From Desulfobacula sp. (GTDB lineage Bacteria > Desulfobacterota > Desulfobacteria > Desulfobacterales > Desulfobacteraceae), in NCBI GenBank assembly GCA_013792075.1, contig VMSR01000135.1, positions 1 to 38,989 of the forward strand: a stretch of DNA of 38,989 bases. The letters run 5' to 3'. This document shows, one piece after another, positions 12,839-30,248 of this stretch. The translations under genes were made by a program, and so were the position numbers. Every line of letters begins with the position of its first letter. Within the stretch, counting starts at the first letter, position 1. The notes beneath the pieces are model-generated. The model worked only from the letters and a program-made list of their open reading frames with translations. It was not told the DNA's origin and did not search any database.

Positions 12839-12885
12839 TTTATTTTGTCAAGGATTATATTCACAAGAAAAAACGGGGATTACCT

Positions 12886-14343: not shown

Positions 14344-14430
14344 GCCGGCTCCAAGACCTTCATCAAAAAATACAATCGACACCCTGGAAAACCATAAGGC
14401 GTGTAAGGAGGATTACCCCCCCATTTAAAA

Positions 14431-14484
14431 CAAAAAAATCGAAATACCCTTGGCGTATTTTGGATACTCAAAGGCATTTCGATT
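14431..14484 (-). terminator. Rho-independent terminator of the tRNA operon
   Basis: In minus-strand RNA, AATCGAAAT pairs with AUUUCGAUU (9 bp). Further inner pairs are CCUU/AAGG and GUAU/AUAC. A run of seven U follows, from the A-run at 14432-14438. It lies 20 bases after tRNA-Glu and before the radical SAM gene. Confidence 0.75.
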
Positions 14485-14503
14485 CCTTTTACCGGGGTAA
14501 AAG

Positions 14504-14581
<78 letters not shown>

Positions 14582-14608
14582 GCAGTATTTTTTGGGTGTT
14601 TCCGTGGC

Positions 14609-14684
14609 TGGTGGGCCGTGCTGGGCTCGAACCAGCGACTCTCTGCTTAAAAGGCAGATACTCTACCAACTGAGTTAACGGCCC
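14609..14684 (-). tRNA. tRNA-Lys (anticodon TTT)
   Basis: The reverse complement gives a 76-base cloverleaf with encoded CCA. The acceptor is GGGCCGT/ACGGCCC with discriminator A. The anticodon stem is TCTGC/GCAGA with loop CTTTTAA (anticodon TTT). The T arm is GGTTCGAGCC. It is the first gene of the two-tRNA transcript. Confidence 0.97.
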
Positions 14685-14709
14685 GTAGGCAACTCCAAAA
14701 AACAGGGCG

Positions 14710-14738
14710 AATCTATATGTTTTAGCAGTCTTTGTCAA
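14710..14738 (-). promoter_or_regulatory. Sigma70 promoter of tRNA-Lys/tRNA-Glu operon
   Basis: On the minus strand TTGACA (14733-14738) and TAGATT (14710-14715) are 17 bases apart. This places the transcription start about 20 bases before the tRNA-Lys 5' end. The remaining gap up to 15114 shows only a weak plus-strand promoter candidate, TTGACT near 14935 with CATTAT 16 bases later, and no gene. Confidence 0.7.
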
Positions 14739-15114
14739 CTGTTTTCTTTTTGCTTTGTGTATTATTTAAATATTACCCGAAAAGACAAAGCACAAGTTGT
14801 ATAGATAACATGTTGTAACTTAAAAAGATACCCCCGGATCTTGCCTTTATCTCCTGCCCTTTAAATAGTTTCCCCCAATTGTTTTTTTATGGCGGATTCT
14901 CAGGTTTTAAACAAGCCCTCTGTATCATTGGTTTTGACTGCGTCTTTTAATCAATCATTATGGGAAAATTTCCTTTTCTTTGTCTAAATTCTGTGCAACC
15001 ATGCACTTCAGATTTAATAGCCTGTTGGGAGAATTGATTTGCCGAGGTCCAGACACCCCAAAAGAGGTATACCATAACCGGCACGACCGGCAAAACGTAC
15101 ATGGAAATCACAAA

Positions 15115-16278
15115 ATGAAAAAAATTCTCTGGCTCATTCAGTCAAACCAGATCACCCCCACGATCCATGACTTTCTTAAGCTGTTCCAAACCCGGATGGA
15201 AAGACTTGTTGATCTGTCATTTATCGTTCCTGAAACCTCTTCTGACATTCTGGAAAGGATAACAGCGCTTGAGCCTAGCTGTTTTAAACTAAAAAATCGT
15301 TCTGTAGCCAAGTCATACCAGGGATACCTGGCCAAAAAAGCCTGTCTCAATGATGTGGCCTTCACCCAGGGGCTGACGATTTCCGATGTATTGCTGCTGG
15401 ATGATCTGGGAGGCGGCAATGTCATCCAAACCGGCCTGGACATAAAAAAGACAGACAATACCTGCGGGCTGATCCTGCAAATCCCAACGCCTTTAGGATC
15501 TTCAGAGGCTGAAGAACGGGTGTTCCACGCTGCCATCGTCTGGGCAAGACAAAACCGAGTGCCGGTTATCGGGTATGAGCTATTGCCCCTTGACACCCGA
15601 TGGACTCTCTCGACATCCCTTCCGGACGGGGTGATCACAAGGTATTCGGAAAGTTATGACCATTTGAAACAAACATTGAGCCATAAAAACATCTGGCAGC
15701 TGCCCTTGTATGAAGCGTCCATATTTTCATCTGTGTCCGCAACATTTAATTTAAACGGTGTAAAAGCCTCTTACCATTATAGAACCACCCACACTATACC
15801 CGAGGGACGAACCATATTGTTCCTTCCCCACAATGTTGCAATGCTCTATGAGTACCAGGAGTTGCTGAGGATACTGGCACCCATGGGAAAAAAACTTCAC
15901 CTGATGTTCAATTACGGAGAAGACCAGGTAAGGGGCGCCCATACCCAGAAAGAAATGATTGAGATCATTTATAAAAACGAATTGGCCCAATTTGCATCAT
16001 ACTCTTTCCACAATATGGACTCTCCCTGGGAGATGTTAACGGCCGACAGCCTGGTTGCCTGCAGCGCCTGCTTTCAAGGCAGTATTGCCCAGGAAAAAAA
16101 CATTCCCTCCATTATCTTTGATCCCATGCTTCCAGCCATGGTCAATGGGTTCAAACAACGGATCAACACTGTCAAGCGCTTACAGGCTGCCATCAAGGAG
16201 GTCATTGCCCTTAAAACAAAAAAGACGGAGCTGGGAACAATTTTCATGCAATTGGCCGGGGGGGTGCCCAAAAAATGA
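15115..16278 (+). CDS. Putative glycosyltransferase-like protein
   Basis: This is a 387-residue cytoplasmic protein. The reading frame is open from a TTG at 14980, but the ATG at 15115 (KKILWLIQSN) is the better start: the extra N-terminus is unlike protein and a GGAA lies 9 bases before the ATG. No family is firmly recognised. The general layout is that of a two-domain GT-B or CDP-glycerol-transferase-like fold. There is an N-terminal alternating strand-helix region and, from about residue 240, a second Rossmann-like half beginning GRTILFLPHNVAMLYEYQELL, with ADSLVACSACFQGSIAQEKNIPS near the end, a layout seen in nucleotide-sugar binding halves. It overlaps the next gene by 4 bases (ATGA), so they are coupled. 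Context suggests it transfers or handles one of the exotic sugars made by the convergent cluster. Confidence 0.6.
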   Translation: MKKILWLIQSNQITPTIHDFLKLFQTRMERLVDLSFIVPETSSDILERITALEPSCFKLKNRSVAKSYQGYLAKKACLNDVAFTQGLTISDVLLLDDLGGGNVIQTGLDIKKTDNTCGLILQIPTPLGSSEAEERVFHAAIVWARQNRVPVIGYELLPLDTRWTLSTSLPDGVITRYSESYDHLKQTLSHKNIWQLPLYEASIFSSVSATFNLNGVKASYHYRTTHTIPEGRTILFLPHNVAMLYEYQELLRILAPMGKKLHLMFNYGEDQVRGAHTQKEMIEIIYKNELAQFASYSFHNMDSPWEMLTADSLVACSACFQGSIAQEKNIPSIIFDPMLPAMVNGFKQRINTVKRLQAAIKEVIALKTKKTELGTIFMQLAGGVPKK

Positions 16279-18353
16279 CGGATTTCTGGAAAAACAAAAA
16301 AATAATTGCCTACATTGCACTGGCCCACCACACCCGGTTTATTACCCCTGTCATGGCGGAACTGGAATCCAGGGGAGCCACCATAAAATACATTGTGGCC
16401 CAGGCTGAACGGTCCCAGGAGGTTACGGCCATTGAGCTGGGGCTTTCCTACTCCCATATCTTTGATTATGTCACCGCCAAAGACCAAAAAGAAATCCTGG
16501 AAAATTATCATCTTCTGGAAAAAACCATTGGAAATTCTTTAAAAAATGACTTTTTCCTGGGTATTTTGCCGGTGACCGTGACGGATAAGACCCTCTTTTC
16601 GACGGCCACTGAATATGTTGGATTTAAAAATCTGCTGAAAAAAGAGAAGCCAAACCTTTGCTTTGCCCTCCACGAACTCAACCGCTGGGGAAAAATGTTC
16701 GCTTTTTGGGCAAAAAAATCCAACATCCCTTTAATCACCCTCCAGGAGGGCTTAACCTATGGCCTGGACTTCGGTTATTCCGGACATGCACAATATTCCA
16801 CCCTCAATCTTGTGTGGGGAGAACGGGTAAAGAAAAAAATGGTCAGCTTTGAAGCGCCTGAATCAAAGATCCTCCCGGTTGGCAATACCCACCTTGCAAA
16901 GGAGATTGCATTTCAGAAAAACAATAAAATAAGAGAAACAAAAAGAAAAGAATATGGCATATCCGACCATTTTGTAAGCCTTTTAATTCTTTCATCCATT
17001 TTGCCCAAGCCTGAACTCTTTAAACCCATTTTTAGAACGGTGTCGAAAAATACCGGGAACACCTTGTTTGTCAAATTCCATCCCGCCTGCAAAAAGGGGC
17101 AATTGGAACAATGGATTCACTCAGTAACGGCTCTTTTCAAAAACAATATCCAGTTTATCCATACCCAGGAGGACACCTACAACCTGATTTCCATGGCAGA
17201 TGTGTGTATCCTGGGACAACCGAGCACAACGGGACTCGAATCCATTGCCCTTGGCAAACCCCTTGTAAAACTGGATTTTGCCTATACCCCAAACTCACCT
17301 TACTCTTTTGTGGATCAGGGAGTGGCCGTTAAAATGAGTGCCAAAAAACTGGCTACAGCCTTATCAGAAAAAACAGATTTTTCACAATTTATGGATGAAG
17401 AAAAAAAAGTGCAATTTCTTAAGAATGAACTGATAGCGCCGACCCATGCGATTGAAAGCGTATGCCGGGTCTTTGAAAAGACAATCCGGGCAAATACCAG
17501 CCCCCGCAGATCTCTGGAAAATCCCAAGCAAAAATCGGATAAAAAATGGTCTATCATCCTCCAAGTCCCGGACAATTCCGATGTTTTCCTCGCCCAATTG
17601 GAAGCTGTGGCCTTCAATTCCGAAGATGCGGGTGACTATGAAATTATTTTATTGGAACCGGAAAAAAAGTCAGCAGACATCATCCAAATTCTGGAGTCGT
17701 TAAAAGGGGATTTAAATCGACTGACCGTCCCTGAAGGCAACAACCCCATCACCATGATGAACACAGCAGCTCTTTTGGCCAGGGGGGAAAATCTGATTTT
17801 TCTTGAAAAAAACCTGGCCCCCCTTAGGGGATGGCTTGATTGCCTGAATACCGCTTTTTTAAAATATGGGAAAAATAAAATATTTGGGGCACGGATTTGC
17901 GATAAAAATGGAAAAATTGCCAATGCAGGAATGGTTGTTGATCACAACAACACACCTGTTTGCGCCTACCAGCACCTTAATCAGGATTTTTCAGGGGTGC
18001 TCACAGAAAGAAGTTTTCAGATGGTAGATCATTTTGTTGCCATGGAAAAAAATGGCTTCATTAAAACAGGAGGCTTTGCACCAAATGCAGGCAAATACGC
18101 CTTTTTGGATATCTGTCTGAAAGCCTGTCAATCCACGAAGGATCCGGATGCCATTGTGTATCTTCCAGACCTTAAAATGATACTTTTAGATTCCCTGCAC
18201 CCAAAAGAAAACCCGGATGATGCCATCTTTTTTTATGGCAAATGGACCGGTGCGCTCTGGGAATCGGAACAAAAATTGTACCAGACAGACGGGTTCTCTC
18301 CAAATGATCTGGCCCATGCCCGGATGGCAGCAGCCATGCAATCGGCTTTATAG
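16275..18353 (+). CDS. Two-domain glycosyltransferase (GT-B plus GT-A-like)
   Basis: This is a 692-residue protein. Residues about 1-400 resemble capsule or CDP-glycerol-type GT-B enzymes: a Rossmann start KIIAYIALAHHTRFITPVMAEL, then FVKFHPACKKGQ (His-Pro as in TagF-like enzymes), IQFIHTQEDTYNLISMADV and GQPSTTGLESIALGKPLV, the usual donor-binding glutamate region. Residues about 425-690 form a second domain like a degraded GT2 (GT-A): SIILQVPDNSD, YEIILLEPE, NTAALLARGENLIFLEKNLAP, and GGFAPNAGKYAFLDICLKA near the end. No clear DXD is seen, so the second domain may be non-catalytic. It could add sugars in polysaccharide or flagellin glycosylation. Translation is coupled to the preceding gene. 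Its last 6 bases overlap the convergent methyltransferase gene. Confidence 0.7.
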   Translation: MTDFWKNKKIIAYIALAHHTRFITPVMAELESRGATIKYIVAQAERSQEVTAIELGLSYSHIFDYVTAKDQKEILENYHLLEKTIGNSLKNDFFLGILPVTVTDKTLFSTATEYVGFKNLLKKEKPNLCFALHELNRWGKMFAFWAKKSNIPLITLQEGLTYGLDFGYSGHAQYSTLNLVWGERVKKKMVSFEAPESKILPVGNTHLAKEIAFQKNNKIRETKRKEYGISDHFVSLLILSSILPKPELFKPIFRTVSKNTGNTLFVKFHPACKKGQLEQWIHSVTALFKNNIQFIHTQEDTYNLISMADVCILGQPSTTGLESIALGKPLVKLDFAYTPNSPYSFVDQGVAVKMSAKKLATALSEKTDFSQFMDEEKKVQFLKNELIAPTHAIESVCRVFEKTIRANTSPRRSLENPKQKSDKKWSIILQVPDNSDVFLAQLEAVAFNSEDAGDYEIILLEPEKKSADIIQILESLKGDLNRLTVPEGNNPITMMNTAALLARGENLIFLEKNLAPLRGWLDCLNTAFLKYGKNKIFGARICDKNGKIANAGMVVDHNNTPVCAYQHLNQDFSGVLTERSFQMVDHFVAMEKNGFIKTGGFAPNAGKYAFLDICLKACQSTKDPDAIVYLPDLKMILLDSLHPKENPDDAIFFYGKWTGALWESEQKLYQTDGFSPNDLAHARMAAAMQSAL

Positions 18354-19502
18354 CGGGGAATAGGGGTTAAGGATATCCCCTTCCCAGCCGGCTTGCCCCA
18401 GGCGCTGCTGGATCTCTTCAAAATAGGTTGATGCCACCAGGATCAGCCAGGAGCGACTGTTTTTGAACTCTTGTTCAATCCAGACATCGGCGTTGGCTAT
18501 CTTTAACTGTGCATACCCGACAAATGTTTTCCCGGCCTTATCCGGATTGCTGTCAACAATAATATCCGGGCAGATATTAAAATAATTCATCACCTTCACC
18601 CCCCCGGAACCTGCTCCCCACAGGGCCAATTTTTTACCGTGCACAGCCTTTTCCAGGACATTTTTATTTTTTTCTATCCACAAAGACAATTGAAACAAAT
18701 TTCCAACCCCGGGAACCGATATCCTGCCGTTTACCCGGGTAAAAAGGCCGATCAAATGTCCATTGGAAGTCTCCACATACGCTTTTAAATACCAGTTGTG
18801 CTTTTCCAACAGCCGCTTTAACGACATGATGCTGAAAACATGGACATGCTCGATATGAAACGCAGCCATACTCTGGTGTTGTATGGACCAATTCAAACAG
18901 GGGGTTTCAACAATCAAAACGGTTTCGCCGTGACTCACATTCTGATGGGCTTGAAAAAAATCTTCAAAATCAAATACATGCTCAATCACATGGCGGTGGA
19001 AAATGAGATCAAATTTTCTTTTAATCGTTTGAGATGCCCGGTTTGTAAAAAATTGTCCATAGACCAGAAATCCGGATGCCGATGCCCTTTCAGCCGTTTG
19101 GGTATTGGGTTCAAACCCCGCCAGCACCGTGTCGGGAAAAAGTCGGTTGATTTTTGTCAGCATCTCCCCTGCCGAGCAGCCGACCTCCAGGATGCTTGCA
19201 GAAGGGGTCAATACCTTAAACCGCTCTAGCAATGTCTGTAGAAATTGATTCTGGAACTGAACACCGATATCCGGGGGGCGGGGGGTATAATAATGGTCTT
19301 GATATAGTTTCTCTAAAACTGAAATGGCCGGATTTTTCTGGAAACAATGTTCACAATTTTTACAAAAAAAATAGTTCAGGTCTTTGAAATAGGGTTCTTT
19401 GATGGCATCGGCAGATACAACCGGATGCTGATAGATTGGTTGATGGTCAAGGGATAAGATCTCTTGAAATTTTGGGCTGTCGCAGACGGGACATTTTTCC
19501 AT
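18348..19502 (-). CDS. Zinc-binding SAM-dependent C-methyltransferase-like protein
   Basis: This 384-residue protein is built like sugar C-methyltransferases (TylCIII/NovU type). An N-terminal zinc-binding module has C4 and C7 (CPVC) and C47, C50 and C53 (FCKNCEHC). A class I SAM domain has SILEVGCSAGEML (about 103-115), FHRHVIEHV and FEDFF. The C-terminal domain starts LALWGAGSGGVKVMNYF (about 302) and has IVDSNPDKAGKTFVG, as in the family's C-terminal Rossmann half. It may methylate a nucleotide sugar or a nonulosonate intermediate. It is the last gene of the long minus-strand series. RBS GGAG sits 5 bases before the ATG, and the upstream deacetylase stop overlaps the RBS. Confidence 0.85.
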   Translation of the reverse strand: MEKCPVCDSPKFQEILSLDHQPIYQHPVVSADAIKEPYFKDLNYFFCKNCEHCFQKNPAISVLEKLYQDHYYTPRPPDIGVQFQNQFLQTLLERFKVLTPSASILEVGCSAGEMLTKINRLFPDTVLAGFEPNTQTAERASASGFLVYGQFFTNRASQTIKRKFDLIFHRHVIEHVFDFEDFFQAHQNVSHGETVLIVETPCLNWSIQHQSMAAFHIEHVHVFSIMSLKRLLEKHNWYLKAYVETSNGHLIGLFTRVNGRISVPGVGNLFQLSLWIEKNKNVLEKAVHGKKLALWGAGSGGVKVMNYFNICPDIIVDSNPDKAGKTFVGYAQLKIANADVWIEQEFKNSRSWLILVASTYFEEIQQRLGQAGWEGDILNPYSPL

Positions 19503-19504
19503 AG

Positions 19505-20158
19505 TTACTCCAGTATTCTCAAGACCTCAAAGGCTTCTGCCTTTTCCATGCCTGCCTGGCACCCCCGAAATTGGGCCAGGGCCTTCAGGGCTTGTTTTGA
19601 TCTGGCATGGGGGAATTCTCTTAATTCCATGGCATATGCCTCCAGGGCCTGCATTTTTTTTTCCCACAATTTTTCCACATCAACAAACCGCCGGGGATTA
19701 AAAACAGCGTCCGGATCATACCAATGGGTGGCAGACATGATTTCAAAGGCATACATCTTTCGGACTATTTCCTCTGGCAAAGGCCTGAAAACGGTCAATG
19801 CAATATCATGCACCACCCTGTGATCAATATTCAGGTCTTTGTTGCTGTGGGTATACACCGTGTCAAATGGAATTTTTCGGGTCTGCTGTTCAACCGCCTT
19901 CACCAGCTCAAGCAGGGGATATTGATCCAATTGGTTGTCTTTAAAATCAAATTGATGCAACAGGTGAATGCCGAGGATATCACAGCTTTCGGCAAGGGCC
20001 TGATCCCGTTTTGTTTTGTCTTTTTTTTCCCGGGACGAAACGCCGTCGGCAACCACAATCAGATAAACCCTGTCGCCTTGCTGGACATGTTTTGCCAATG
20101 TCGCCCCGCACCCGATCACTTCATCATCCCCATGGGCTACCAGTGCCAGTACATTCAA
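19505..20158 (-). CDS. PIG-L/LmbE-family N-deacetylase
   Basis: A zinc-dependent deacetylase of the PIG-L (MshB/BshB) family, 217 residues from the TTG at 20158. I prefer TTG because GGGAG lies 8 bases before it and NVLALVAHGDDE is the usual family start. An ATG at 20173 would add five residues and has no RBS. Zinc ligands are H9 and D12 in AHGDDE (the usual proline is glycine) and H113 in NIDHRVV; H104 begins the conserved HSNKDLNIDH block. The family removes N-acetyl groups from amino sugars. Its place directly after pseI suggests it acts on a pseudaminic-type sugar or intermediate, exposing an amine for re-acylation. The start overlaps the pseI stop by 4 bases. Confidence 0.85.
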   Translation of the reverse strand: MNVLALVAHGDDEVIGCGATLAKHVQQGDRVYLIVVADGVSSREKKDKTKRDQALAESCDILGIHLLHQFDFKDNQLDQYPLLELVKAVEQQTRKIPFDTVYTHSNKDLNIDHRVVHDIALTVFRPLPEEIVRKMYAFEIMSATHWYDPDAVFNPRRFVDVEKLWEKKMQALEAYAMELREFPHARSKQALKALAQFRGCQAGMEKAEAFEVLRILE

Positions 20159-21186
20159 GATATATGCTCCCATTTTAATGCAGTGCCTGCATCCAGTTTT
20201 TGATTAAAGGTTTTGCCCATCACCTGCTCATAAAATACGGGTGAAAGCCCATATCCGGGTCGAATGCTGCGAATGTTTTTACCGCTTAACGGCTCCCCGC
20301 AAGCCACATCACAAATAACATATAAGGAACGGGCATGCTCACGGCCGGGTCTGTTTTTCGAGTTTAAAATTTCAGAAGACCCCAAACTGTCCCAGACGTT
20401 TTGACAATTGATTTTTAACGCCCTCATCTGGTCCTCTTCTAGGGAAAAGGCAGCATCAGGCCCCCCATCCGCACGGGACAGGGTAAAATGCTTTTCAACG
20501 GCACATCCGCCCATGGCAATGGCGGCCAAGGCCGCTGTATCCGCCAGGGAATGGTCAGACAATCCCACCAGGGGAGAAAACTGTTTTAAGATCGGTATAG
20601 CACGAAGGTTATAGTCCTCAATGGCAGCCGGATAGGCGCTGACACAATGAAACAGCAGAATATCTTCTGCCCGGTTGTCCGTAAATACCTTCATGGCCAT
20701 GTCAAGATCCTCAAGACTGCTGATACCAGTGGACATCAAAATGGGTTTGCCGGTTTGGGCGATACAGTTTAAAAATTGCGGGTCAACGGCTTCAAAGGAG
20801 GCGATTTTAAAGGCCGGGCACCCTGATTCCATGAGCAGATCAATTGCCCGTTCATCAAAGGGGGAGCTGAACAGGGTGATGCCGATTTCACGGGCATAAT
20901 CAAACAATTGCTTTGTATATTCAAGGGGCAGAGCGATCTGTCTATACAATTGATAATAGGTTCTGCCTTTCCACAAGGGGGTGCGAATCATAAAATCCGT
21001 CTTTGTGCAGTCTATGGTAAGGGCATCTGCATCATAGGTGGCAATCTTTACGGCATCCGCCCCTGCTCTCTGGGCGGACAGCATTATTTTTTTGGCCCTG
21101 TCCACACTCCCCATATGGTTGTTGGACATCTCGGCAATAATATAGGGTGGATACCCGGGACCGATTTTTCTGCCCTCAATTTCCAT
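20155..21186 (-). CDS. pseI: Pseudaminic acid synthase (NeuB family)
   Basis: This 343-residue enzyme condenses PEP with 2,4-diacetamido-2,4,6-trideoxy-L-altrose to give pseudaminic acid. The NeuB TIM barrel covers about 10-265: PPYIIAEMSNNHMGS, AGADAVKIATYDAD, TLFSSPFDERAIDLL, FKIASFEAVD, ILMSTGISSLEDLD, and the metal-site histidines H212 (SDHS) and H233 (VEKHFTL). The insertion RTPLWKGRTYYQLY and the ending GPDAAFSLE are characteristic of PseI rather than NeuB or LegI. A SAF (antifreeze-like) domain closes the protein (RSLYVICDVACGEPL, RPGYGLSP). The start overlaps the HAD gene end by 11 bases. RBS GGGGTGGG is about 5 bases before the ATG. A second NeuB-type synthase lies 3.6 kb upstream in the same operon. 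Confidence 0.93.
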   Translation of the reverse strand: MEIEGRKIGPGYPPYIIAEMSNNHMGSVDRAKKIMLSAQRAGADAVKIATYDADALTIDCTKTDFMIRTPLWKGRTYYQLYRQIALPLEYTKQLFDYAREIGITLFSSPFDERAIDLLMESGCPAFKIASFEAVDPQFLNCIAQTGKPILMSTGISSLEDLDMAMKVFTDNRAEDILLFHCVSAYPAAIEDYNLRAIPILKQFSPLVGLSDHSLADTAALAAIAMGGCAVEKHFTLSRADGGPDAAFSLEEDQMRALKINCQNVWDSLGSSEILNSKNRPGREHARSLYVICDVACGEPLSGKNIRSIRPGYGLSPVFYEQVMGKTFNQKLDAGTALKWEHIS

Positions 21187-21778
21187 AAAATCCCACCCCT
21201 ATAAAATCAATACCCGCATTTTTGGCAAACACACCATCAATATCAAACCGGTCTCCCACCATTATGATTTTTCCCGGGTTGAAGCGGTTGCACATCAAAT
21301 CAAAGGCCGCAGTATCCGGTTTTATGCAGGCCGTTGTTGACGGATCTAAGATGATGATCTCTTTCATATAGGGGGCAAGCCCCAGTTTTTCTATCTTTCT
21401 TGTTTGAAGCTGGTTTTGTCCATTGGTGATAATACACATGTTTTTATGGCAGGATTTCAAATAGGCCAGACAACCGGACTCTTCCGGGCCAAGCACAAGG
21501 TTTCTGCAATCATGATCCTGATAGAGGTGCAACAATTTTGTTTTTACGATACCCTCAATGCCCAGAAGCAATAGCGCATCATCTATCAGGTTGCCATAAT
21601 CATTGCCCCTGGCCTGCTTTAACCCCATGACACAATCGACCCATGGTTCCGGATTTTTTTGAAAACCGGCTTTCACAAGCCATTGGGCCATGTCCTCAAA
21701 AGCACCCCTATAAAATTGATCGCTGTCGTAAAGCGTGCCATCCAGATCAAAGAGAATGGTGTCATAATTGGATAACAT
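21176..21778 (-). CDS. HAD-family phosphatase-like hydrolase
   Basis: A HAD hydrolase of about 200 residues. From the ATG at 21778 the nucleophile motif DLDGT falls at residues 11-15. An ATG at 21805 adds nine residues and overlaps the upstream gene by 17 bases; it has a slightly better RBS (GGAA), so the start is uncertain. Other motifs are IITNG (motif II threonine), IKPD (motif III lysine) and IMVGDRFDID (motif IV aspartates). The helical cap between motifs I and II is of the small C1 type, as in phosphoglycolate- and sugar-phosphatases. Its place between the ATP-grasp gene and pseI suggests it removes a phosphate from an intermediate, such as a 9-phosphate or an acyl-phosphate by-product, but no substrate can be read from the sequence. 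Confidence 0.82.
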   Translation of the reverse strand: MLSNYDTILFDLDGTLYDSDQFYRGAFEDMAQWLVKAGFQKNPEPWVDCVMGLKQARGNDYGNLIDDALLLLGIEGIVKTKLLHLYQDHDCRNLVLGPEESGCLAYLKSCHKNMCIITNGQNQLQTRKIEKLGLAPYMKEIIILDPSTTACIKPDTAAFDLMCNRFNPGKIIMVGDRFDIDGVFAKNAGIDFIGVGFYGN

Positions 21779-21788
21779 TTTTTTATGC

Positions 21789-22697
21789 TCACAGATCCTG
21801 GACATATTCGTTCCAATAACGGATAATTCTTATTTTTTTTTGTGGAGTGGGAAAAGTTACCTTTTCCCCGGTATAGACATCAATGGCGCCCTTTAGAAAA
21901 TCAAGGCCGCTGTAAACGCTGAACATGACGCTGCCTGCAATCCTGGGATTTATTTCAATGATATGACAGACATTTTCACGGTCTTGTATCACCTGAATAT
22001 TGATAAGGTACCTAAATTTGAGCAGACGGCCAATTTTTTCAACCAAAGGAAAAAAAGAGGCCGGGTCCACGATGGTGCCGATGATGGAAACACCGCTGGC
22101 TGTATCCCGTCGCCGGACGGAAATTTTTAAAAGCCCCCCGTCCTTTGAAAACAGGGCGTCAATTGTGTATTCGTCTCCTGCAATAAAGTCCTGGATCACG
22201 CCGTCGGCCTTTGATTTTTCTGCCAGCTCGGACACAGTATGGAGAATTCGCACCCCTTTGCCCCCCCTGCCGAGGTTTGGTTTAAAAACAGCCGGAACCG
22301 TTTTTGAAAATCCTGCCACGGGCAGGCCGTTTTCCCGGCAAAAGATCTGGAATTGTTTTTTATAAAGGCATGTTTGGGTGGTATCGGGTCGGGGCAGCAG
22401 ACATTTCTCCCACAGGTCCATATCCGAATGTTCCATCAATCTTGCGATCTCTTCATCAATAAACGGAACAAACAGATCAACCCGATTGATCTGGTCTGTC
22501 ATAAAAGAAATATAATCTGCCCCGTTTGCCAGGGGAGCCTTTGTCACCCCATCGGCAATGGATCGGGCAAGGGGCAAGGCCTTTTCATTGGCATCAATTG
22601 CATGGACATGATGACCCAGCTCTTTCAGATGCCCAATGATATTATGGGCAGCAGGGGACGCGCCTGCGGAAATTAAAATTTTAAGGTGCGGCGTCAT
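21789..22697 (-). CDS. ATP-grasp ligase (carbamoyl-phosphate-synthase-like)
   Basis: This is about 302 residues from the ATG at 22697, which has GGAGAG 7 bases before it; an ATG at 22703 is nearly as good. The longer open frame to 22862 is only an overlap with the upstream gene. An N-terminal Rossmann-like preATP-grasp half (ILISAGASPAAHNIIGHL) precedes the ATP-grasp fold: AVFKPNLGRGGKGVRIL (glycine-rich loop), VIQDFIAGDEYTIDALF, and the metal-binding CHIIEINPRIAGSVM. Such enzymes join a carboxylate to an amine through an acyl-phosphate. In a pseudaminic operon with a deacetylase, it could attach an amino acid or another acid to an amino group of the sugar; this is inference. Start overlaps the pseG-pseH fusion by 17 bases. 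Confidence 0.82.
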   Translation of the reverse strand: MTPHLKILISAGASPAAHNIIGHLKELGHHVHAIDANEKALPLARSIADGVTKAPLANGADYISFMTDQINRVDLFVPFIDEEIARLMEHSDMDLWEKCLLPRPDTTQTCLYKKQFQIFCRENGLPVAGFSKTVPAVFKPNLGRGGKGVRILHTVSELAEKSKADGVIQDFIAGDEYTIDALFSKDGGLLKISVRRRDTASGVSIIGTIVDPASFFPLVEKIGRLLKFRYLINIQVIQDRENVCHIIEINPRIAGSVMFSVYSGLDFLKGAIDVYTGEKVTFPTPQKKIRIIRYWNEYVQDL

Positions 22698-24108
22698 ACA
22701 CATACTCTCCTTTTCCCGCAGATTGAAACCCAAGGGACGAGAACAGGCCAATGGACGCTTTATTTTCCGGATGAACAACTGCCGTATAGCATTGCTTCTG
22801 GGTTTGAATGATTTTTTCCAGGGCTTTTTTCGCAAAGCCCAGGCCCTGAAACTTTTGGGCAATTAAAACAGACACCTCATTTTTGCTGCCGTTGCAGTTC
22901 AGGCGGATATATCCGATGGCCCCATTGCACCATTCAATGATATGGATAGTCACGTAGTCGCATGACAACATCCTGTCAAACCAGAGCCGGTGTTCTTTTT
23001 TTGTGGGCAGGTCCGGTTTTCGAAAATACCGTCTTGCCCCTTTCTCATGCTGCCATTTGTACAATAGTTCCAGATCATTTTCGTTCACCAATCGAAGACT
23101 CACAGGAGATATCAGGTCAATGGTCTCTTTTATGACCCGGGCAGGTCCGTTCCCATCAACCAGCCCTATTGCCTGTTTTTGCAGATTTTTTCCAACGGCC
23201 GGCACCTCTATCATCTGTGTCAGTGTTCGGGTGAGAAGCAAAGGGTCAAGACTTGAAATCTCACCCAGGCAAAGGGCCGCACCTTGACGAGATATATTTT
23301 CACCAACTTGTCTTTGATTTGGCGCCACAACAATCACAATATTAATCAGGCCGCAATAAATACGCTCCAATAGGCTTGTGCCCGGTGCGCCGATGGCAAT
23401 GCCGCAGATCTCATATAAAGGGCAAAGGTCGGGCAGATCCCGGTACAACCGGATATCCAGCCGAAAGCTGTCCCTGCGTTTTTCAAGTTCTTCAACACAC
23501 GGAGACATAGAAGACAGAGGCAGGTGAAAAACAAGCCCCTTTGTTGCCATAAAAGGTTCCAGGATATCCAGAACCTTTAACGCCACTTGTTCAGGATCCG
23601 TCGCCCCGAAGCTGATCAATATATTGGTTTTGTCCCCATTGCTTTTAATCTTATCATAAACAGGGTCAATCAGGATAAAGTTACTTCCAGACAAAATTCG
23701 GGCAGAAGGATTAAACATTTTTTTTTCATAGGTATGGGCCTTGCAATTAGGCGTTTGATCCACCAGCAAATGACACCAATGAGACCGGCACAGATCATCC
23801 ATCACCACTACCGGAAAAATAGCAAAAATCTCCTGTTCAATGTCAGCGCCAATTTCATAGTGATCTATAATGACAAGCTTGATCCGATCTTTTTTTTCAA
23901 CCAGATACGGCCGACATTGGCCATGATCTGATATGACCGCAAATTCCATATCCCGGTCTTTCAAAAGCATTCGGACAACAGGGGTTGCTTCTCTCATTAA
24001 AAAAGTGACCAAAAGACCCAGTTTCCTGTAAAGGCCGGCCAATACCAGACATCTTTTCAAATGGCCATAGCCGATCTGCCGTGTTGCATCACATATAATG
24101 ACGATCAT
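22681..24108 (-). CDS. pseG: Fused PseG (UDP-sugar hydrolase) and PseH-like N-acetyltransferase
   Basis: This 475-residue bifunctional enzyme covers two steps of pseudaminic acid synthesis. Residues about 1-330 are PseG, a GT-B-like hydrolase that removes UDP from UDP-2,4-diacetamido-2,4,6-trideoxy-altrose. It shows IGYGHLKRCLVLA with H16 as the expected catalytic histidine, ILISFGATDPEQ, and IAIGAPGTSLLERIYCG followed by VAPNQ. Residues about 335-475 are a GNAT acetyltransferase like PseH, which acetylates the 4-amine: SLRLVNENDLELLYKWQ, EHRLWFDRML, GYIRLNCNG, the acetyl-CoA loop AQKFQGLGFAKKAL, and VHPENKASIGLFSSLGF. The two are normally separate genes. The start overlaps pseF by 4 bases. 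The C-terminal coding end contains the start of the ATP-grasp gene. Confidence 0.88.
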   Translation of the reverse strand: MIVIICDATRQIGYGHLKRCLVLAGLYRKLGLLVTFLMREATPVVRMLLKDRDMEFAVISDHGQCRPYLVEKKDRIKLVIIDHYEIGADIEQEIFAIFPVVVMDDLCRSHWCHLLVDQTPNCKAHTYEKKMFNPSARILSGSNFILIDPVYDKIKSNGDKTNILISFGATDPEQVALKVLDILEPFMATKGLVFHLPLSSMSPCVEELEKRRDSFRLDIRLYRDLPDLCPLYEICGIAIGAPGTSLLERIYCGLINIVIVVAPNQRQVGENISRQGAALCLGEISSLDPLLLTRTLTQMIEVPAVGKNLQKQAIGLVDGNGPARVIKETIDLISPVSLRLVNENDLELLYKWQHEKGARRYFRKPDLPTKKEHRLWFDRMLSCDYVTIHIIEWCNGAIGYIRLNCNGSKNEVSVLIAQKFQGLGFAKKALEKIIQTQKQCYTAVVHPENKASIGLFSSLGFQSAGKGEYVYDAAP

Positions 24109-24806
24109 GACGCCACCATGCCCAAAAACAACGGCGCCAAAAGCTGCGCATTCCTGTAATCTTCCGGTGTATCCATGTCAATGGCCCTGATCCAGGGGAT
24201 TTCATACCCCTTTAACCGGTCAGCGTAAAAACTTTTATTCTTTAAAAAAGCCAGGGTATCTGCCCAGTAAAAGGTGCCATTGCTTGCCACAAGTCTGGGA
24301 TGAAGCTGGGACTGCAATCGGTTATAATCCGGCCACTTTGGCCTTAACCACCCGTCTTCCTTATTTTCCAGTGCCTGGACCGGATGCAGGTTGAAAGCGG
24401 AAACCCCCATCACCACCTCTGGGCAGGAAGGTTCTTCCATCATCAAAAAAGATGCCTGCAGATCCTTGGGCGTTATAAAGACAGCCGTGGCATAAATGCA
24501 GCAAAACCGTGTCGGACGGATACCGTTGCTGTCAAGCCGTTCAAGGACATCCCGGCAGACCTGGCCGACGCCTGCCGTATCACGGGCCAAAGCCTCTGGC
24601 CTTTCCATAACCGTGGCCCCAAACCCTTCTGCCGTCTGTTTGATTTGTTCGTCTTCCGTGGAAACGATCACCTGGTCAAAAAGCCCAGACCCCAGGGCTG
24701 CCTGAACCGGATAATAAAGGGCAGGTTTTCCCAAAATAGGCAAAATATTTTTCCGGGGCAGTCTTTTGGAGCCCCCCCGGGCCGGAATGATGGCAATGCG
24801 TATCAT
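24105..24806 (-). CDS. pseF: Pseudaminic acid cytidylyltransferase
   Basis: This 233-residue enzyme activates a nonulosonic acid as CMP-sugar using CTP. It has a GT-A-like Rossmann fold with the nucleotide loop IIPARGGSKRLPRKN (about 6-20), GKPALYYPVQAAL, VIVSTEDEQI, CIYATAVFITPKDL (the YATA form of PseF rather than YPTSP of NeuA), NGTFYWADT and IDMDTPEDY. The length is normal. It is the only complete dedicated CMP-sugar synthetase in the window although there are two NeuB-type synthases. ATGA overlaps link it on both sides. Confidence 0.92.
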   Translation of the reverse strand: MIRIAIIPARGGSKRLPRKNILPILGKPALYYPVQAALGSGLFDQVIVSTEDEQIKQTAEGFGATVMERPEALARDTAGVGQVCRDVLERLDSNGIRPTRFCCIYATAVFITPKDLQASFLMMEEPSCPEVVMGVSAFNLHPVQALENKEDGWLRPKWPDYNRLQSQLHPRLVASNGTFYWADTLAFLKNKSFYADRLKGYEIPWIRAIDMDTPEDYRNAQLLAPLFLGMVAS

Positions 24807-25876
24807 TCGTAGACCACATCTTTAAAATCAAGCTGATGGCCCGGGGTAAGGTCGCGGGAAATCCGCATGCCCACCAGAGATTCGAATTGTTTGGGAGAAA
24901 TCCCGAACCCCGGCCGTCTGAATTCAACCTGGTCCAGACCAATCCTGTCTCCCTGTTTCATCTCCTGTTTTGTGAAGGTGCTTCGCCGGACATTTCGCCT
25001 CGTTTGTTTTTCTTCAAGATCCATAACCCGTCTCGGACTGCCCATGGCGATTTCAATCTCCCGGATGGTTTGAACAAAGGCCTTCATTTCAGCAGGTTCC
25101 AGGGAAAAAACATGTTCCGTGCTTCTGATGGCCCGGTCCAGGGTGATGGTCTTTTCCACAAGGTTTGCACCCAGGGCCACGGCAGCCACATCCATATCCC
25201 AGCCCGGCGTATGATCGGAATAGGCAATGGGATAAAGGGGAAACATCTGCTTTAGGGTGGTAATCATCTTTAAATTAATACTCTCAAGCCTTGCCGGATA
25301 GCCCGAAGGACAATTGTGGATGATGATATTGTGATTGCCTTCCAGGTTGCAGATTTCCACCGCCTGCTCAACCTCCCCGATACTGGCATTCCCTGTGTCC
25401 AGCTGGATGCACATGCCCGTCCTGGCAGCCATTCTGATCAGAGGCCAGTGATCTATATCGGCAGATGCAATCTTGATGGAATCACACTTCAAGGCCGTTA
25501 AAAGCGCAATATCCTCTTCAAACCCCACCGTGGCAAAAAAGGCAAGTCCCAGAGAATCACTGAATTCTTTGATAATTTTCCATTGGTCAGGCGCAAGGCA
25601 CCGTCTGCACAAAATATCATAGAGCGGTTCTGTTATGGTATGGGTTTGCCCTGTTTTTTTATCCCCGAGGATCTCATAGGTAAAGGGAAGTGTTTTATCC
25701 GCCACCAGTCTGTCCGGATCAAAGATCTGAAATTTAATGGCGTCGGCACCGGCTTCTGCCGCAAGACGGATCAGGGCCATGGCAGATTCAACCCCATCGT
25801 GGGTGGCACCTGCTTCAAAGGTGATGAAACAGGGATGACCATCCCCCAGTCTTCGATCGCCGAAACTAACCATCAT
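24803..25876 (-). CDS. Second NeuB-family nonulosonate synthase
   Basis: This 357-residue NeuB-type PEP-condensing enzyme has a TIM barrel followed by a C-terminal SAF domain (RSTFTKQEMKQGDRIG, RRPGFGISP). Barrel motifs include FEAGATHDG (about 20-28), AGADAIKFQIFDPD, FFATVGFEED, SIKIASADIDH, IQLDTGNASIGEVEQ and NCPSGYPA. The first metal-site histidine H222 is kept (YSDHTPGW), but the second, normally in EKHFTLD, is T243 (VEKTITLDR). A histidine at 255 (STEHVFSLEP) may stand in. This differs from the pseI product, so another substrate is likely. It may start at 25873, because GGAGG lies 7 bases before the second ATG. It overlaps pseB by 4 bases or less and pseF by 4. Confidence 0.87.
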   Translation of the reverse strand: MMVSFGDRRLGDGHPCFITFEAGATHDGVESAMALIRLAAEAGADAIKFQIFDPDRLVADKTLPFTYEILGDKKTGQTHTITEPLYDILCRRCLAPDQWKIIKEFSDSLGLAFFATVGFEEDIALLTALKCDSIKIASADIDHWPLIRMAARTGMCIQLDTGNASIGEVEQAVEICNLEGNHNIIIHNCPSGYPARLESINLKMITTLKQMFPLYPIAYSDHTPGWDMDVAAVALGANLVEKTITLDRAIRSTEHVFSLEPAEMKAFVQTIREIEIAMGSPRRVMDLEEKQTRRNVRRSTFTKQEMKQGDRIGLDQVEFRRPGFGISPKQFESLVGMRISRDLTPGHQLDFKDVVYE

Positions 25877-26871
25877 ACCCCCTCCAGGAACGGCGCTATC
25901 ATCTGTTCAACCTGGTCTTTGGTGACCCAGATTGGATTGGTGTCGGACGTGTATTCAAAATCCAAGGGAACCGGTTTATAAATATTTTCATCAATGCTGC
26001 ATTTAAAAAACTGATTATCCGATTTTATCAGATAATACGCTTCACTTTCTAAGGTGTTCCGGGCCTCATCCCGACTGATCAATGTTTCATGGATTTTCTC
26101 GCCCTGGCGGATACCGATGATTTTTGTGGGACAATCCGGGGCAATGAATCCGGCCAGGTCCATAATGCCCATGGAGGGTATCTTGGGGACAAAGGTTTCT
26201 CCCCCTGTCATCCTTTCAAGACTCTTGAGCACAAACTCCACCCCATGGTCAAGGGTGATCCAGAACCGTGTCATGTCCGGATGGGTTATGGGCAAAACCC
26301 CTTCCCGACTTTTCTTTAAAAAAAACGGAATAACAGAACCCCTGCTGCCCACCACATTGCCGTAGCGCACCACAGAGAACATGCATTTTTTGCGCCCCAC
26401 AAAGGCATTGGCCGCAATAAACAGCTTTTCCGCACACAGCTTGGTCGCCCCATACAGATTGATAGGATTCACCGCCTTGTCCGTGCTCAGGGCAATCACC
26501 TTTTGCACCCCACACTCGGCCGCCACACCCACCACATTCTCAGCGCCTGTAATATTTGTTTTGATGGATTCCGTTGGGTTGTATTCGCTGGCAGGCACCT
26601 GCTTCATGGCAGCGGCATGGATCACATAGTCCACACCCTGAAACGCCCATTTCAAACGCTCCTTATCCCTTACATCCCCTAAAAAAAACCGCACCGGATA
26701 TTTTTCCGTGGGAAAACCTTGCGCCATGTCAAACTGCTTGAGCTCGTCCCGGCTGAACACAATTATTTTTTTGGGACTGTGATGCCTTAAAATAATTTCA
26801 ACGCATTTTTTCCCAAACGACCCGGTCCCGCCGGTAATTAAAACAACCTTATCTTTCAGCATTGAATCCAT
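25873..26871 (-). CDS. pseB: UDP-GlcNAc 4,6-dehydratase (inverting), PseB
   Basis: This 332-residue SDR enzyme catalyses the first step of pseudaminic acid synthesis, 4,6-dehydration with C5 inversion of UDP-GlcNAc. The NAD(P) loop is TGGTGSFGKK (13-22). AAAMKQVPASEYNP (86-99) is the PseB/FlaA1 signature, and the catalytic set is D131, K132 and Y140, K144 (TDKAVNPINLYGATK). VVRYGNVVGSRGSV and FWITLDHGVEFV follow. AAGGGG is 4 bases before the ATG at 26871; an in-frame ATG three codons later is also possible. It starts the tightly overlapping pse block. The next gene should be pseC, but here it is a NeuB-type synthase. The 372-bp stretch upstream (26872-27243) is AT-rich with no gene seen. Confidence 0.93.
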   Translation of the reverse strand: MDSMLKDKVVLITGGTGSFGKKCVEIILRHHSPKKIIVFSRDELKQFDMAQGFPTEKYPVRFFLGDVRDKERLKWAFQGVDYVIHAAAMKQVPASEYNPTESIKTNITGAENVVGVAAECGVQKVIALSTDKAVNPINLYGATKLCAEKLFIAANAFVGRKKCMFSVVRYGNVVGSRGSVIPFFLKKSREGVLPITHPDMTRFWITLDHGVEFVLKSLERMTGGETFVPKIPSMGIMDLAGFIAPDCPTKIIGIRQGEKIHETLISRDEARNTLESEAYYLIKSDNQFFKCSIDENIYKPVPLDFEYTSDTNPIWVTKDQVEQMIAPFLEGV

Positions 26872-27243
26872 GGAACCCCTTCTAAAATTATAGGATTAAC
26901 AAACACTTGACCGGCTTTAAATCTATCAAAACTGCAATAACTATTCCCCTCTATCAATAATCTTATACTCCCTTTGAAACCCCATGCCTATTGCAGAATT
27001 CTCCCCAATTAAATATCAAACATTTTCAAAAAAGTAATGATAGTTTTTGAATGAATCCGGATAATTATTCCACAACCACAAAACTGCGGCAATATTTTCC
27101 ACACTCACCTAAGCTATTAAAAAATGAGCTTCCCCCATAGTCCTCTCAAAAACAAAAAAAGGAAGCGTTTCTGGACAGTAGAAACAATTCCCCTCAATTT
27201 ATCAATCAGATGTCTGTTATTTTTCCGGATGGAATTCCCGCTA

Positions 27244-28374
27244 TTAACGCTTCCCATAAAGGATACAATTTACTTCGTTTAATTCAGTTTTAGAAAATTT
27301 TCGAAAATATGGATGGAATGAATCATACATTGAATCATCAAATTTCATCTCCTCTTCAATTTTGTAGGTTCTAATATTCAATCCATGTTGAATAAAAGGC
27401 CTTTTTCCATTCAATGGGAAGCAACTGATTCTGATAAAATTTTTTTAAAGAAATCTCAGACCATTCTTTCTCCGCATATTGTCTGAATGAGAAAGCATGG
27501 CATCCTGAATGTTTTGAAAAGGATCGATGATCCTTAGTGATCACTTTATTTAATATAGTTCCCCCCTTCTTGAGGACACGCATAACCTCTGCCACAGAAG
27601 ACTCAGGATGCTTGGCGTGCTCCAAAACACCTGAAGAAAATACAAAATCAAATTGACTATCCTCAAAAGACAACTTGCAGATATCCATTGGATATAAAAA
27701 TTTAATCTTTTTTTCAGATAGAAAATACCGACCTTTTTTTTTGTATAAATATAGATTCAAAGCGTTTTAAAGCGCGCTGCCGAAGTTTTTCATCACCAAT
27801 TGAGTCAAAATAAATTCTAATGGAATCATAGGCATCAAATTAATTGGTAATATCTGGATAATTTATACCAAAGCGATATTTGTCAATTAAAAAAACCACA
27901 TCCGCGCCATAACAATAAAGCAACACCTCAAGCCCGAGGTTTCCCCCAGGTCCAATGGAAAGACAGGTAGACCCTTCAAAGGTCGCCTGGGAAGACAAAT
28001 AATACGTATCAATCAATTCCCATGAAGCATCTATTGAAAGGGGATACCGGCCAACGCTCAGATAGTGTGTATTGCGTTCATACCCCATGCGCTCAAGTTG
28101 AATGGAAATTGCATCCCGCCCGGATATGGTTGTCACAATAATTTTGTCGAAATCAAAACTATTCAGCTCAGCCGGGGGAATAATTTCATGACCGGAAAAA
28201 AATTTCCCATGCAGTGAAGCGTCATTATCAGTTACGTATAAAACCTGGACATCGGGGTTGATTCTTGCTCAGATAATCCAAGAACTCTTCAGAACCATTT
28301 CCTGACCCAAACAGCACGATTCGATCCTTATTCATAGCAGGGATTTCGAATATATTAATCCATCGATAATTCAT
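27244..28374 (-). pseudogene. Broken Rossmann/SAM methyltransferase gene
   Basis: The conserved frame can be followed through four lesions. It starts at an ATG at 28374 (NKDRIVLFGSGNGSEEFLDYL). A one-base insertion near 28270 moves the frame to VQVLYVTDNDASLHG and TTISGRDAISI. That continues through a methyltransferase motif, STCLSIGPGGNLGLEVL, to an in-frame TAA at 27840-27842 after NYPDITN. The same frame runs on (FDAYDSIRIYFDSIGDE) until an A9 run (27734-27742), where another extra base shifts to GRYFLSEKKIKF and FDFVFSSGVLEHAKHPE, typical SAM-methyltransferase motif II/III sequence. A third extra base near 27410 shifts to FIQHGLNIRTYKIEEE, ending at 27244. The intact protein would have been about 375 residues: an N-terminal nucleotide-sugar-like Rossmann half plus methyltransferase. 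It lies in the sugar cluster between pseB and the GT2 gene. Confidence 0.8.
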
Positions 28375-28444
28375 TATAATCCAAAAAACACTTTATCAAC
28401 GTCCATGGAATTGTTTGAAACAACTATGCATTGGCTCAAAAGTT

Positions 28445-29263
28445 TCAATTGAGTTGTTTTAATTTAGAGGCAGAAAGCCATTCTCTGGCTCTAAATGCAC
28501 ACTTTTTTGACTCCTCTAACAAATTTTTATAATTGGCCGTGGTATGTTGCCCTATTTTTCGATTGTCCCCATGATACCGGATTGAATATAACACCCTTGA
28601 AAGGTGTTTGAATACAGCCCCATCCATAGCAAACCTTAAGTAATGATCATAGTCATTTGCCGATTTATAGTTTTCCTCATCCATAAGACCTGAAATCTCG
28701 TGAAGTTTTGTTCGGTACAACTTGCTTACACCAAGGTGAAACCACTTCGCAAAACAAGTTCGAAAGTCATAATCCGGTAACTTCATTTGTCTTATAATCC
28801 TACCGTCATCATCCATTAAATTCATGTCAGAATACACAAAATCAGCACCCGTTGATTCAATCGTTTGGACAAGTTCCTCAATCATATGAGGATGAGGGAT
28901 ATCATCTCCCACAATGTAAGAGCAATAGTCGCCACTGGCTCTCTTAAAACCTTCATTGTATGTTCTGGTTGCACCTATATCATTATCAAAGGTGAGAATA
29001 ATCAACTCCCTGTTTTGAGGATACAAAATCTTCTTTTCACGAATAATATATCCAAACTCATCCATCCTATCAACAGGGGTAACAGTCGAATTGACAATTT
29101 GCTCTTCCAGCAAAGCAAGATACTTTTTTGTCCCATCCGTAGACCCCCCATCAACAATGATGAGCTCCAGGTTTTCATAAGTCTGGAACAGACAATGGTC
29201 CACACAAGCCGGAAGATACTTGATTTGGTTGAATGTGGGGATAACAATAGATACTTTTTGCAT
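28445..29263 (-). CDS. GT2-family glycosyltransferase
   Basis: This 272-residue protein has a GT-A fold. It opens with the classic SIVIPTFNQIKYLPACVDH, QTYENLELIIVDGGSTDGT (about 27-45), GATRTYNEGFKRASGDY and the metal-binding GDD (VGDDIPHPHM), followed by a DYDHYLRFAM acceptor-side region. No membrane helix is seen, so it is a soluble or peripheral inner-membrane enzyme transferring a sugar from a nucleotide donor to a glycan. The donor cannot be told. There is a strong RBS (GGAAGGAAAGG). The only odd point is a longer loop (NSTVTPVDRMDEFGY) between the second and third strands. It is followed 70 bases later by the broken methyltransferase. Confidence 0.9.
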   Translation of the reverse strand: MQKVSIVIPTFNQIKYLPACVDHCLFQTYENLELIIVDGGSTDGTKKYLALLEEQIVNSTVTPVDRMDEFGYIIREKKILYPQNRELIILTFDNDIGATRTYNEGFKRASGDYCSYIVGDDIPHPHMIEELVQTIESTGADFVYSDMNLMDDDGRIIRQMKLPDYDFRTCFAKWFHLGVSKLYRTKLHEISGLMDEENYKSANDYDHYLRFAMDGAVFKHLSRVLYSIRYHGDNRKIGQHTTANYKNLLEESKKCAFRAREWLSASKLKQLN

Positions 29264-29295
29264 CCTTTCCTTCCTTCTAAAATAAAATCGTTTTT

Positions 29296-30246: not shown

Positions 30247-30248
30247 TT

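Follow-up and report, generated by a model that had tools for sequence, protein, structure and literature searches.

The pseudaminic acid (Pse) gene cluster at positions 18348-26871 of contig VMSR01000135.1 from Desulfobacula sp. probably makes a Pse in which one N-acetyl group is replaced by another N-acyl group, a reading to which we give a probability of about 0.6. The window, the whole stretch of DNA that was analysed, covers 38,989 nucleotides. The cluster comprises nine genes, all on the minus strand, and the set between pseB and the operon end described in a first-pass annotation is confirmed by the open reading frame (ORF) list and by Pfam and NCBIfam matches. The family matches of the nine ORFs are beyond chance. 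In order of transcription the products are PseB, a second NeuB-like protein (NeuB2), PseF, PseG-PseH, an ATP-grasp enzyme, a HAD phosphatase, PseI, a PIG-L deacetylase and a methyltransferase. As the annotation stated, most junctions overlap (seven of the eight, by 4 to 23 bases), the sole non-overlapping one being the PIG-L/methyltransferase junction with its 2-base gap. The G+C content of the nine genes is 0.44-0.52 and does not set the extra genes apart as foreign. The catalytic steps, the modified position, the acid and the order of the steps are all what we infer from the following genes and their relatives:

25873..26871, minus strand: PseB, UDP-GlcNAc 4,6-dehydratase (inverting), core; TIGR03589 486 bits (cut-off 408).
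24803..25876, minus strand: NeuB-like protein (NeuB2), core companion with a rebuilt active site; PF03102 and SAF.
24105..24806, minus strand: PseF-like CMP-transferase; TIGR03584 182 bits (cut-off 206, not reached).
22681..24108, minus strand: PseG-PseH fusion (hydrolase and GNAT N-acetyltransferase); TIGR03590 159 bits (cut-off 154), GNAT at residues 338-462.
21789..22703, minus strand: ATP-grasp enzyme, probable carboxylate-amine ligase, add-on; ATPgrasp_Ter 62.9 bits.
21176..21805, minus strand: HAD-IA phosphatase, add-on, partner of the ATP-grasp enzyme; HAD_2 61.5 bits.
20155..21186, minus strand: PseI, pseudaminic acid synthase, core; TIGR03586 392 bits (cut-off 340).
19505..20173, minus strand: PIG-L family N-deacetylase, add-on; PF02585 80.5 bits.
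18348..19502, minus strand: S-adenosylmethionine (SAM) methyltransferase, candidate member of the sugar 3-C-methyltransferases, add-on; Methyltransf_23 57 bits.

The start of the ATP-grasp gene is most likely the ATG at 22703, with AAAGGAGAG just upstream, rather than the longer TTG ORF start at 22862.

The observation that carries this reading is a mutual exclusion of ATP-grasp and pathway N-acetyltransferase unless PIG-L is also present. It comes from two surveys. For the class set, 389 genomes were sampled from the class, and the 55 whose PseI exceeds the cut-off are each represented by up to about 20 kb around PseI (shorter at contig ends, minimum 3.2 kb; for the window, 10601-30600). A second set (L049-L128) consists of loci of many phyla, the best 80 matches of a NeuB2 search. 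Pooling gave 106 loci, 75 Pse-type and 31 legionaminic-type, each with a PseG domain above 150 bits or NeuC above 250 bits; two that carry both markers enter as Pse-type only. This requirement left out the ATP-grasp loci G338, G370, G386 and G042, none of which has a GNAT above 80 bits. The class searches for NeuB2 and PseI scored at most 5 candidates per genome. Genome G004 lies outside the class set since contig ends interrupt its PseI, and G205 (L045) is outside the counted sets, with a PseI of 322 bits against the cut-off of 340.

In the pooled set 66 of the 92 loci that lack ATP-grasp have an N-acetyltransferase (PseH-type GNAT or LegH-type), whereas it occurs in 0 of the 12 that have ATP-grasp and lack PIG-L (p 1.6e-6); it is kept in both loci that have ATP-grasp and PIG-L together (the window and G143). 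The contrast persists in loci of at least 12 kb (0/10 against 57/80). None of the seven class-set ATP-grasp loci without PIG-L has a GNAT above 80 bits (the G042 match reaches 17 bits), and the two with PIG-L keep one at 143 bits (window) and 141 bits (G143). Among the loci of other phyla (L049-L128), GNAT is found in 0/5 Pse-type ATP-grasp loci against 15/24 without ATP-grasp, and a PglD/LegH-type acetyltransferase in 0/4 legionaminic-type ATP-grasp loci against 19/29. Halving the acetyltransferase thresholds leaves 0/8 and 0/4 unchanged. Other pathway genes show no significant depletion when ATP-grasp loci without PIG-L are compared with loci without ATP-grasp (DegT 7/12 against 70/92, PseB 8/12 against 71/92, PseF 10/12 against 79/92); therefore short loci do not account for the loss of the acetyltransferase. 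Across the 46 class-set loci with PseG, a PseH-type GNAT is present in 13/13 with PIG-L and 22/33 without (p 0.02). The uncounted locus G205 carries ATP-grasp, PIG-L and a GNAT ORF with 54 bits to the PseH part of the window's fusion. Because ATP-grasp loci without PIG-L have no pathway N-acetyltransferase, the ATP-grasp enzyme probably installs a non-acetyl N-acyl group, and in the window PIG-L probably first removes the acetyl group added by PseH.

A pathway can be proposed on this basis. PseB, PseC (encoded elsewhere in the genome), PseH, PseG, PseI and PseF would synthesise and activate the sugar in the ordinary way. PIG-L would take off one acetyl group, probably that transferred by PseH. 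The ATP-grasp enzyme would convert a carboxylic acid to an acyl phosphate and couple it to the freed amine. The simplest substrate for the HAD enzyme would be a phosphorylated acid donor, or the acyl group after ligation, from which it would strip a phosphate. A 3-phosphoglycerate-like acid is one candidate, a guess made because a di-O-methylglyceric-acid derivative of Pse is known in Campylobacter jejuni (PMC3958885, seen in part). The methyltransferase may act on the new acyl group or on the sugar. The cassette would be exchangeable, its place being taken in relatives by formyl, amidino or other versions.

The ATP-grasp model (pLDDT 86, pTM 0.84) is nearest to 2pn1, which bears the title carbamoylphosphate synthase large subunit, to PylC 4ffl and to the amino-acid ligase RizA 4wd3, and the ExN motif, with the metal-site Glu and Asn, is invariant in 9/9 aligned sequences. 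The enzyme is thus a probable carboxylate-amine ligase. Its sequence finds no match among PDB sequences and no relatives in the viral collection. Close homologues occur in 3/78 relatives at E 1e-10 and in 5/389 class genomes at 1e-12, the window's own genome included in both counts, so the family is divergent. As a marker for it, PF15632 alone was rejected as too broad: it matches 347/389 genomes, and many of the matches listed are frames of about 1,000 residues, the size of carbamoyl-phosphate synthase. Inspection of 20 stretches around high-scoring PF15632 places left L134 without an ATP-grasp ORF after ORF selection, and the ATP-grasp loci L141, L143, L145 and L147 are among those without NeuB in view.

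The window's HAD family is found in 9/19 loci with ATP-grasp and 0/116 without; in the class set it is seen in four loci, all with ATP-grasp. It adjoins ATP-grasp in 13 of 14 rows and is one gene away in the remaining row. Its one PDB match, 3qnm, is weak. Other, unrelated phosphatases apparently stand beside ATP-grasp elsewhere, calcineurin-like in G143 and G247 and IMPase-like in G205 (named by eye from their N-termini). That a phosphatase, whatever its fold, neighbours the ligase hints at phosphorylation of the acid or the acyl group. PIG-L has the motifs HGDDE (HPDDE in the 13 others compared) and DHRVVH, corresponding to the H-x-DDE and D-H-x-x-x-H motifs that we take to be the zinc site. 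A PIG-L gene is also seen with a WbqC-family gene, perhaps another re-acylation partner, in the nonulosonic acid loci L049, L106 and G204 (L200). In the methyltransferase the SAM domain is over the Pfam cut-off and the two end domains of the C-methyltransferase type, the zinc N-domain and the C-domain, are below theirs (22.1 against 31.3 and 21.1 against 23.5 bits); the protein matches 5t6b with a phmmer E of 3.2e-10. Within the fetched loci its profile scores highest in L135, L039 and L137, all of them ATP-grasp loci. The fourth match, L150, is one bit behind and second by pairwise BLAST, and has no ATP-grasp labelled nearby. In L066 (12986-15283) a 765-residue ORF fuses ATP-grasp (residues 2-336) to the window's methyltransferase family (364-753).

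PseB, PseG and PseI all exceed curated NCBIfam cut-offs (486, 159 and 392 bits). The pseC gene lies outside the cluster, with a single over-cut-off match at G000:C142:3365-4501 (438.6 bits, cut-off 423.5). For PseF the best model is TIGR03584 (182 bits against a cut-off of 206). PseH is represented by the GNAT fused to PseG in one ORF (Acetyltransf_3, 42.8 bits, over cut-off), and in the profile search this ORF matched no PseH-specific model. With PseC on C142, and provided the PseF-like gene is accepted, the ordinary Pse5Ac7Ac pathway is therefore complete in the genome. The six functions of the CMP-Pse5Ac7Ac pathway of Campylobacter and Helicobacter can all be recognised (PseF under the cut-off), with PseG and PseH fused; what differs here is that four extra genes are inserted among or added after them, that there is a further NeuB-like protein and that PseC is unlinked. 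The window PseI has Ala at Q55 (N. meningitidis NeuB numbering; KIATY against KIQTY), a position that is Gln in 95/96 non-NeuB2 members, the window protein being the sole exception; the PseI of G001, from the same genus, retains Gln. The change may either suit PseI to a different N-acyl substrate or weaken the enzyme. Flagellin genes are on contigs C100 and C279 and do not adjoin the pse locus. On C100 three flagellin matches share the contig with another NeuB-family match that has one internal TAA.

Comparison within the genus separates the genes into two layers, a core and an add-on. The operon lies next to two plus-strand genes that converge on it:

16275..18353, plus strand: glycosyltransferase related to NF046086 (BFO_1060) and TIGR04396, candidate product transferase; NF046086 47.5 bits (cut-off 200, not reached).
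14980..16278, plus strand: unknown protein paired with the BFO_1060-type glycosyltransferase; no Pfam match, same neighbour in relatives.

In G001 pseB, the NeuB-like gene, pseF, pseG-H and pseI are followed by the same convergent glycosyltransferase pair, and the four extras are absent between them. In G002 ATP-grasp lies between pseG and pseI; the genome profile searches found no NeuB-like gene there, PseI being the sole match. In G003 and G004 a formyltransferase and PIG-L adjoin pseI, in a gene order pieced from two contigs each as both assemblies break inside the region. In G001 and G005 PseA, HisF and HisH lie beyond the glycosyltransferase pair. The PseA/HisH/HisF (WbuX-type) acetamidino route also alters the N-acyl part of Pse and occupies the same region in these two relatives; in the window's own genome (G000) WbuX/PseA gives three weak matches, none over the cut-off. 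The PIG-L and formyltransferase nonulosonic acid cassettes likewise place PIG-L near PseI, and in G003 and G004 they lie in this region. In contrast to them the window has ATP-grasp and HAD and no formyltransferase, the only such case among the 14 class-set PIG-L loci. We therefore read the locus as a site where the Pse N-acyl group would vary through cassette exchange. The unknown protein and the BFO_1060-type glycosyltransferase (14980-18353) occur together beside pse genes in several genera, which makes them a candidate pseudaminyl transferase pair.

These comparisons support the first-pass interpretation in part. The proposed chemistry, deacetylation followed by ATP-dependent re-acylation, gains independent support from three sides: ATP-grasp replaces the N-acetyltransferase unless PIG-L is present, other acyl-tailoring genes occupy the same region in the genus, and the ATP-grasp model resembles PylC and RizA. 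The idea of one functional unit is not supported, as the core with NeuB2 occurs without the extras in G001 and the extras occur apart in other genomes. Dispersal of the extra genes in relatives, which the annotation had named as counting against it, is thus found in part. The co-occurrence of PIG-L, ATP-grasp and PseI, which it named as a check, is seen in the window and G143; window-family ATP-grasp is present in 9/55 class-set loci and PIG-L in 14/55, and seven of the nine ATP-grasp loci have no PIG-L. Its view of the second NeuB as part of the modification is not supported, for NeuB2 does not co-vary with ATP-grasp and has lost conserved family residues.

NeuB2 is the stranger element of the locus, a conserved protein in a well-studied pathway. 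It has a NeuB barrel and a SAF domain (Pfam NeuB domain scores are 213 bits for NeuB2 and 249 bits for PseI), and its model is nearest to PseI 8h2c (TM 0.85). Its scores lie under the curated synthase cut-offs (TIGR03569 249 against 400 bits, TIGR03586 224 against 340 bits). In a table of 112 ORFs (300-430 aa, above 300 bits), numbered as in N. meningitidis NeuB via a PseI alignment, the changes N29T, S154D, H236T and D247E are present in 16/16 members of the NeuB2 clade. The 96 remaining ORFs have N29 in 96/96, S154 in 93/96, H236 in 96/96 and D247 in 96/96. In NeuB, H236 is presumably a metal ligand. NeuB2 keeps E25, K53, Q55, K129, S132, Y186, H215 and R314. Outside this table are L049, L058 and a G003 fragment (inspected by eye) and six further members seen in part. 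In the 112-row tree NeuB2 forms one clade on a long stem with support of 100/100. Its range, as seen in the genome searches and among the best 80 matches of the wider one, covers at least the window's relatives, Alphaproteobacteria, Hahella, Polaromonas, a Desulfobacterales bin, a delta-proteobacterial bin and an Elusimicrobia bin.

NeuB2 follows PseI closely. It is found in 15/389 class genomes, and PseI is over the cut-off in 14/15 of these against 41/374 genomes without NeuB2 (p 3.6e-12); the fifteenth, G004, has PseI pieces at two contig ends. The gene often lies between pseB or pseC and pseF. In the class set ATP-grasp is present in 2/14 loci with NeuB2 and 7/41 without (p 1.0). A link of NeuB2 to N-acyl tailoring generally was rejected (10/14 against 26/41, p 0.75). 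The BFO_1060-type glycosyltransferase is commoner with NeuB2 (9/14 against 6/41), as is its partner (8/14 against 5/41), which may be descent. On this evidence NeuB2 is a companion of PseI, neither an ordinary second nonulosonic acid synthase nor a member of the acyl add-on. It may catalyse something new or support PseI or PseF; to our knowledge the clade has no assigned role. Flagellin-like N-termini (by eye) are seen in L132 (12920-16001) near a PseF-PseG-ATP-grasp-HAD-PseI cluster and in L051 (17525-19600) near a NeuB2/PseI cluster, which suggests flagellin as the glycan target in these two species.

Several points weigh against the replacement of an acetyl group. Only two counted loci, the window and G143, join ATP-grasp, PseH and PIG-L, and G143 also has a formyltransferase that its PIG-L may serve. 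A formyltransferase is present in 11/14 class-set PIG-L loci; none was found near the window pse locus, which is the only one of the 55 loci with ATP-grasp and PIG-L but no formyltransferase. The PIG-L loci G196 and G263 have no visible re-acylating partner. In the class set alone, with PIG-L ignored, GNAT is present in 2/5 ATP-grasp loci against 33/41 (p 0.08), and the Pse-type loci of other phyla (GTDB) give no signal for PIG-L (GNAT in 2/3 with it, 13/26 without). The counts cover the fetched flanks, some of them shortened by contig ends, and acetyltransferases beyond them would be missed. The loci share descent, and the p values therefore overstate the significance. The class set itself suggested the rule, and the loci tested also supplied the training sequences for the profiles.

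Some of these points would suit a cassette that adds rather than exchanges. The ATP-grasp enzyme would then acylate another position or an otherwise freed amine, and PIG-L would act elsewhere, for example to give a free-amine Pse or on another sugar of the same surface glycan (that of the genes at 30249-32946). The PIG-L genes of G196 and G263, which lack a visible acyl partner, and the seven class-set ATP-grasp loci without PIG-L favour this explanation. We consider it unlikely, since all four add-on genes lie within the closely spaced pse operon or at its end and exchange agrees with the way acetyltransferase and PIG-L are distributed. It is very unlikely that the product is ordinary Pse5Ac7Ac and that the extras are silent or serve other pathways. 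The core is indeed complete once the PseC of contig C142 is counted; the ORFs are, however, intact and closely packed, and ATP-grasp, HAD and PIG-L retain their catalytic motifs.

A further alternative gives NeuB2 a part in making the acyl donor. It would condense phosphoenolpyruvate with an aldehyde (phosphate), HAD would dephosphorylate the product, the methyltransferase would cap it and ATP-grasp would ligate the resulting 3-deoxy acid to the sugar. The Shewanella sfm operon is described, in the part of the paper seen, with a NeuB-domain protein, a reductase, a methyltransferase and ATP-grasp (PMC3765264). Subtracting the published ion formulas gives C9H16O7 for the 236-Da residue there, a composition that would match a reduced dideoxy-nonulosonic acid. 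Locus L045 has a second NeuB-like gene, ATP-grasp, SDR, an IMPase-like phosphatase (by eye) and PIG-L, and SDR-ATP-grasp fusions occur in L037 (4929-6842) and L131 (7557-9974). Set against this are the want of any association between NeuB2 and ATP-grasp in the class-set counts given above, the place of NeuB2 in the genus core without adjoining ATP-grasp (G001, G004) and the absence of a reductase from the window's nine-gene cluster, and donor synthesis by NeuB2 seems improbable. Exchange of one N-acetyl group thus stays the preferred reading. It can be widened, tentatively and with the odds somewhat against the combination, to a picture in which ATP-grasp, often with its own HAD, replaces PseH or LegH across several phyla and installs a non-acetyl N-acyl group, PIG-L acts as an adaptor in loci that retain the acetyltransferase, and a NeuB-fold protein with a remodelled active site performs a new step or control of the Pse pathway beside normal PseI.

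Each enzyme family is already known, as are Pse N-acyl variants, and ATP-grasp has been suspected in Shewanella. The flagellin of Shewanella oneidensis carries, according to the portion of the study seen, a single-acetyl Pse (274 Da) together with an O-methylated moiety of 236, 250 or 264 Da, and the modification needs the sfmABCDE operon, which includes ATP-grasp, a methyltransferase, a thiamine pyrophosphate (TPP) enzyme and a predicted reductase (PMC3765264). In the same text the authors find no clear PseH, PseG, PseI or PseF (PMC3765264). Compared by this published description, sfm resembles the window in tying ATP-grasp and a methyltransferase to a single-acetyl Pse with an O-methylated second moiety, and the case would fit the ATP-grasp/N-acetyltransferase rule. 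It differs in that the window's nine genes have no TPP enzyme and no SDR except PseB, and the five sfm genes listed there have no PIG-L or HAD. The type B flagellin genes of Clostridioides difficile likewise include an ATP-grasp of the carboxylate-amine-ligase kind in a flagellin glycan locus, but the other sugar genes differ, the product is a sulfonated peptidylamido-glycan, and NeuB/PseI is not mentioned in the portion of the text seen (PMC5207246).

The literature matches listed, mostly from outside subscription papers, include no statement that ATP-grasp replaces PseH or LegH, no PIG-L/ATP-grasp pairing in a Pse locus and no description of a NeuB2 clade or inactive NeuB paralogue. The flagellin glycan of Treponema denticola is reportedly a methoxy-trihydroxy-hexanoyl Pse; it is not among the literature matches listed. 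N-acyl variety on pseudaminic and legionaminic acids shapes flagella and surface glycans as met by phages, antibodies and lectins. Some known acyl groups, such as the di-O-methylglyceric group of Campylobacter and the 236-264 Da moieties of Shewanella, are without full enzyme assignment in the parts of the papers seen. The rule that ATP-grasp replaces the N-acetyltransferase, or else is accompanied by PIG-L, is a simple testable predictor for reading nonulosonic acid loci.

Further sugar genes lie beyond pseB. Between pseB and the next glycosyltransferase (27371-28136) are two short minus-strand ORFs, one matching the second half of a methyltransferase domain and the other nothing, and the region looks like a broken gene. 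At 30249-32946 a Gfo/Idh oxidoreductase accompanies a hexapeptide-acyltransferase/DegT aminotransferase fusion; they resemble enzymes of 2,3-diamino sugar synthesis. A similarly long DegT ORF with a neighbouring ORF adjoins pseB in L179 and is near pseB in L176. The sugar genes are flanked by two radical SAM proteins, at 12886-14382 and 29296-30246, one of which includes a B12-binding domain.

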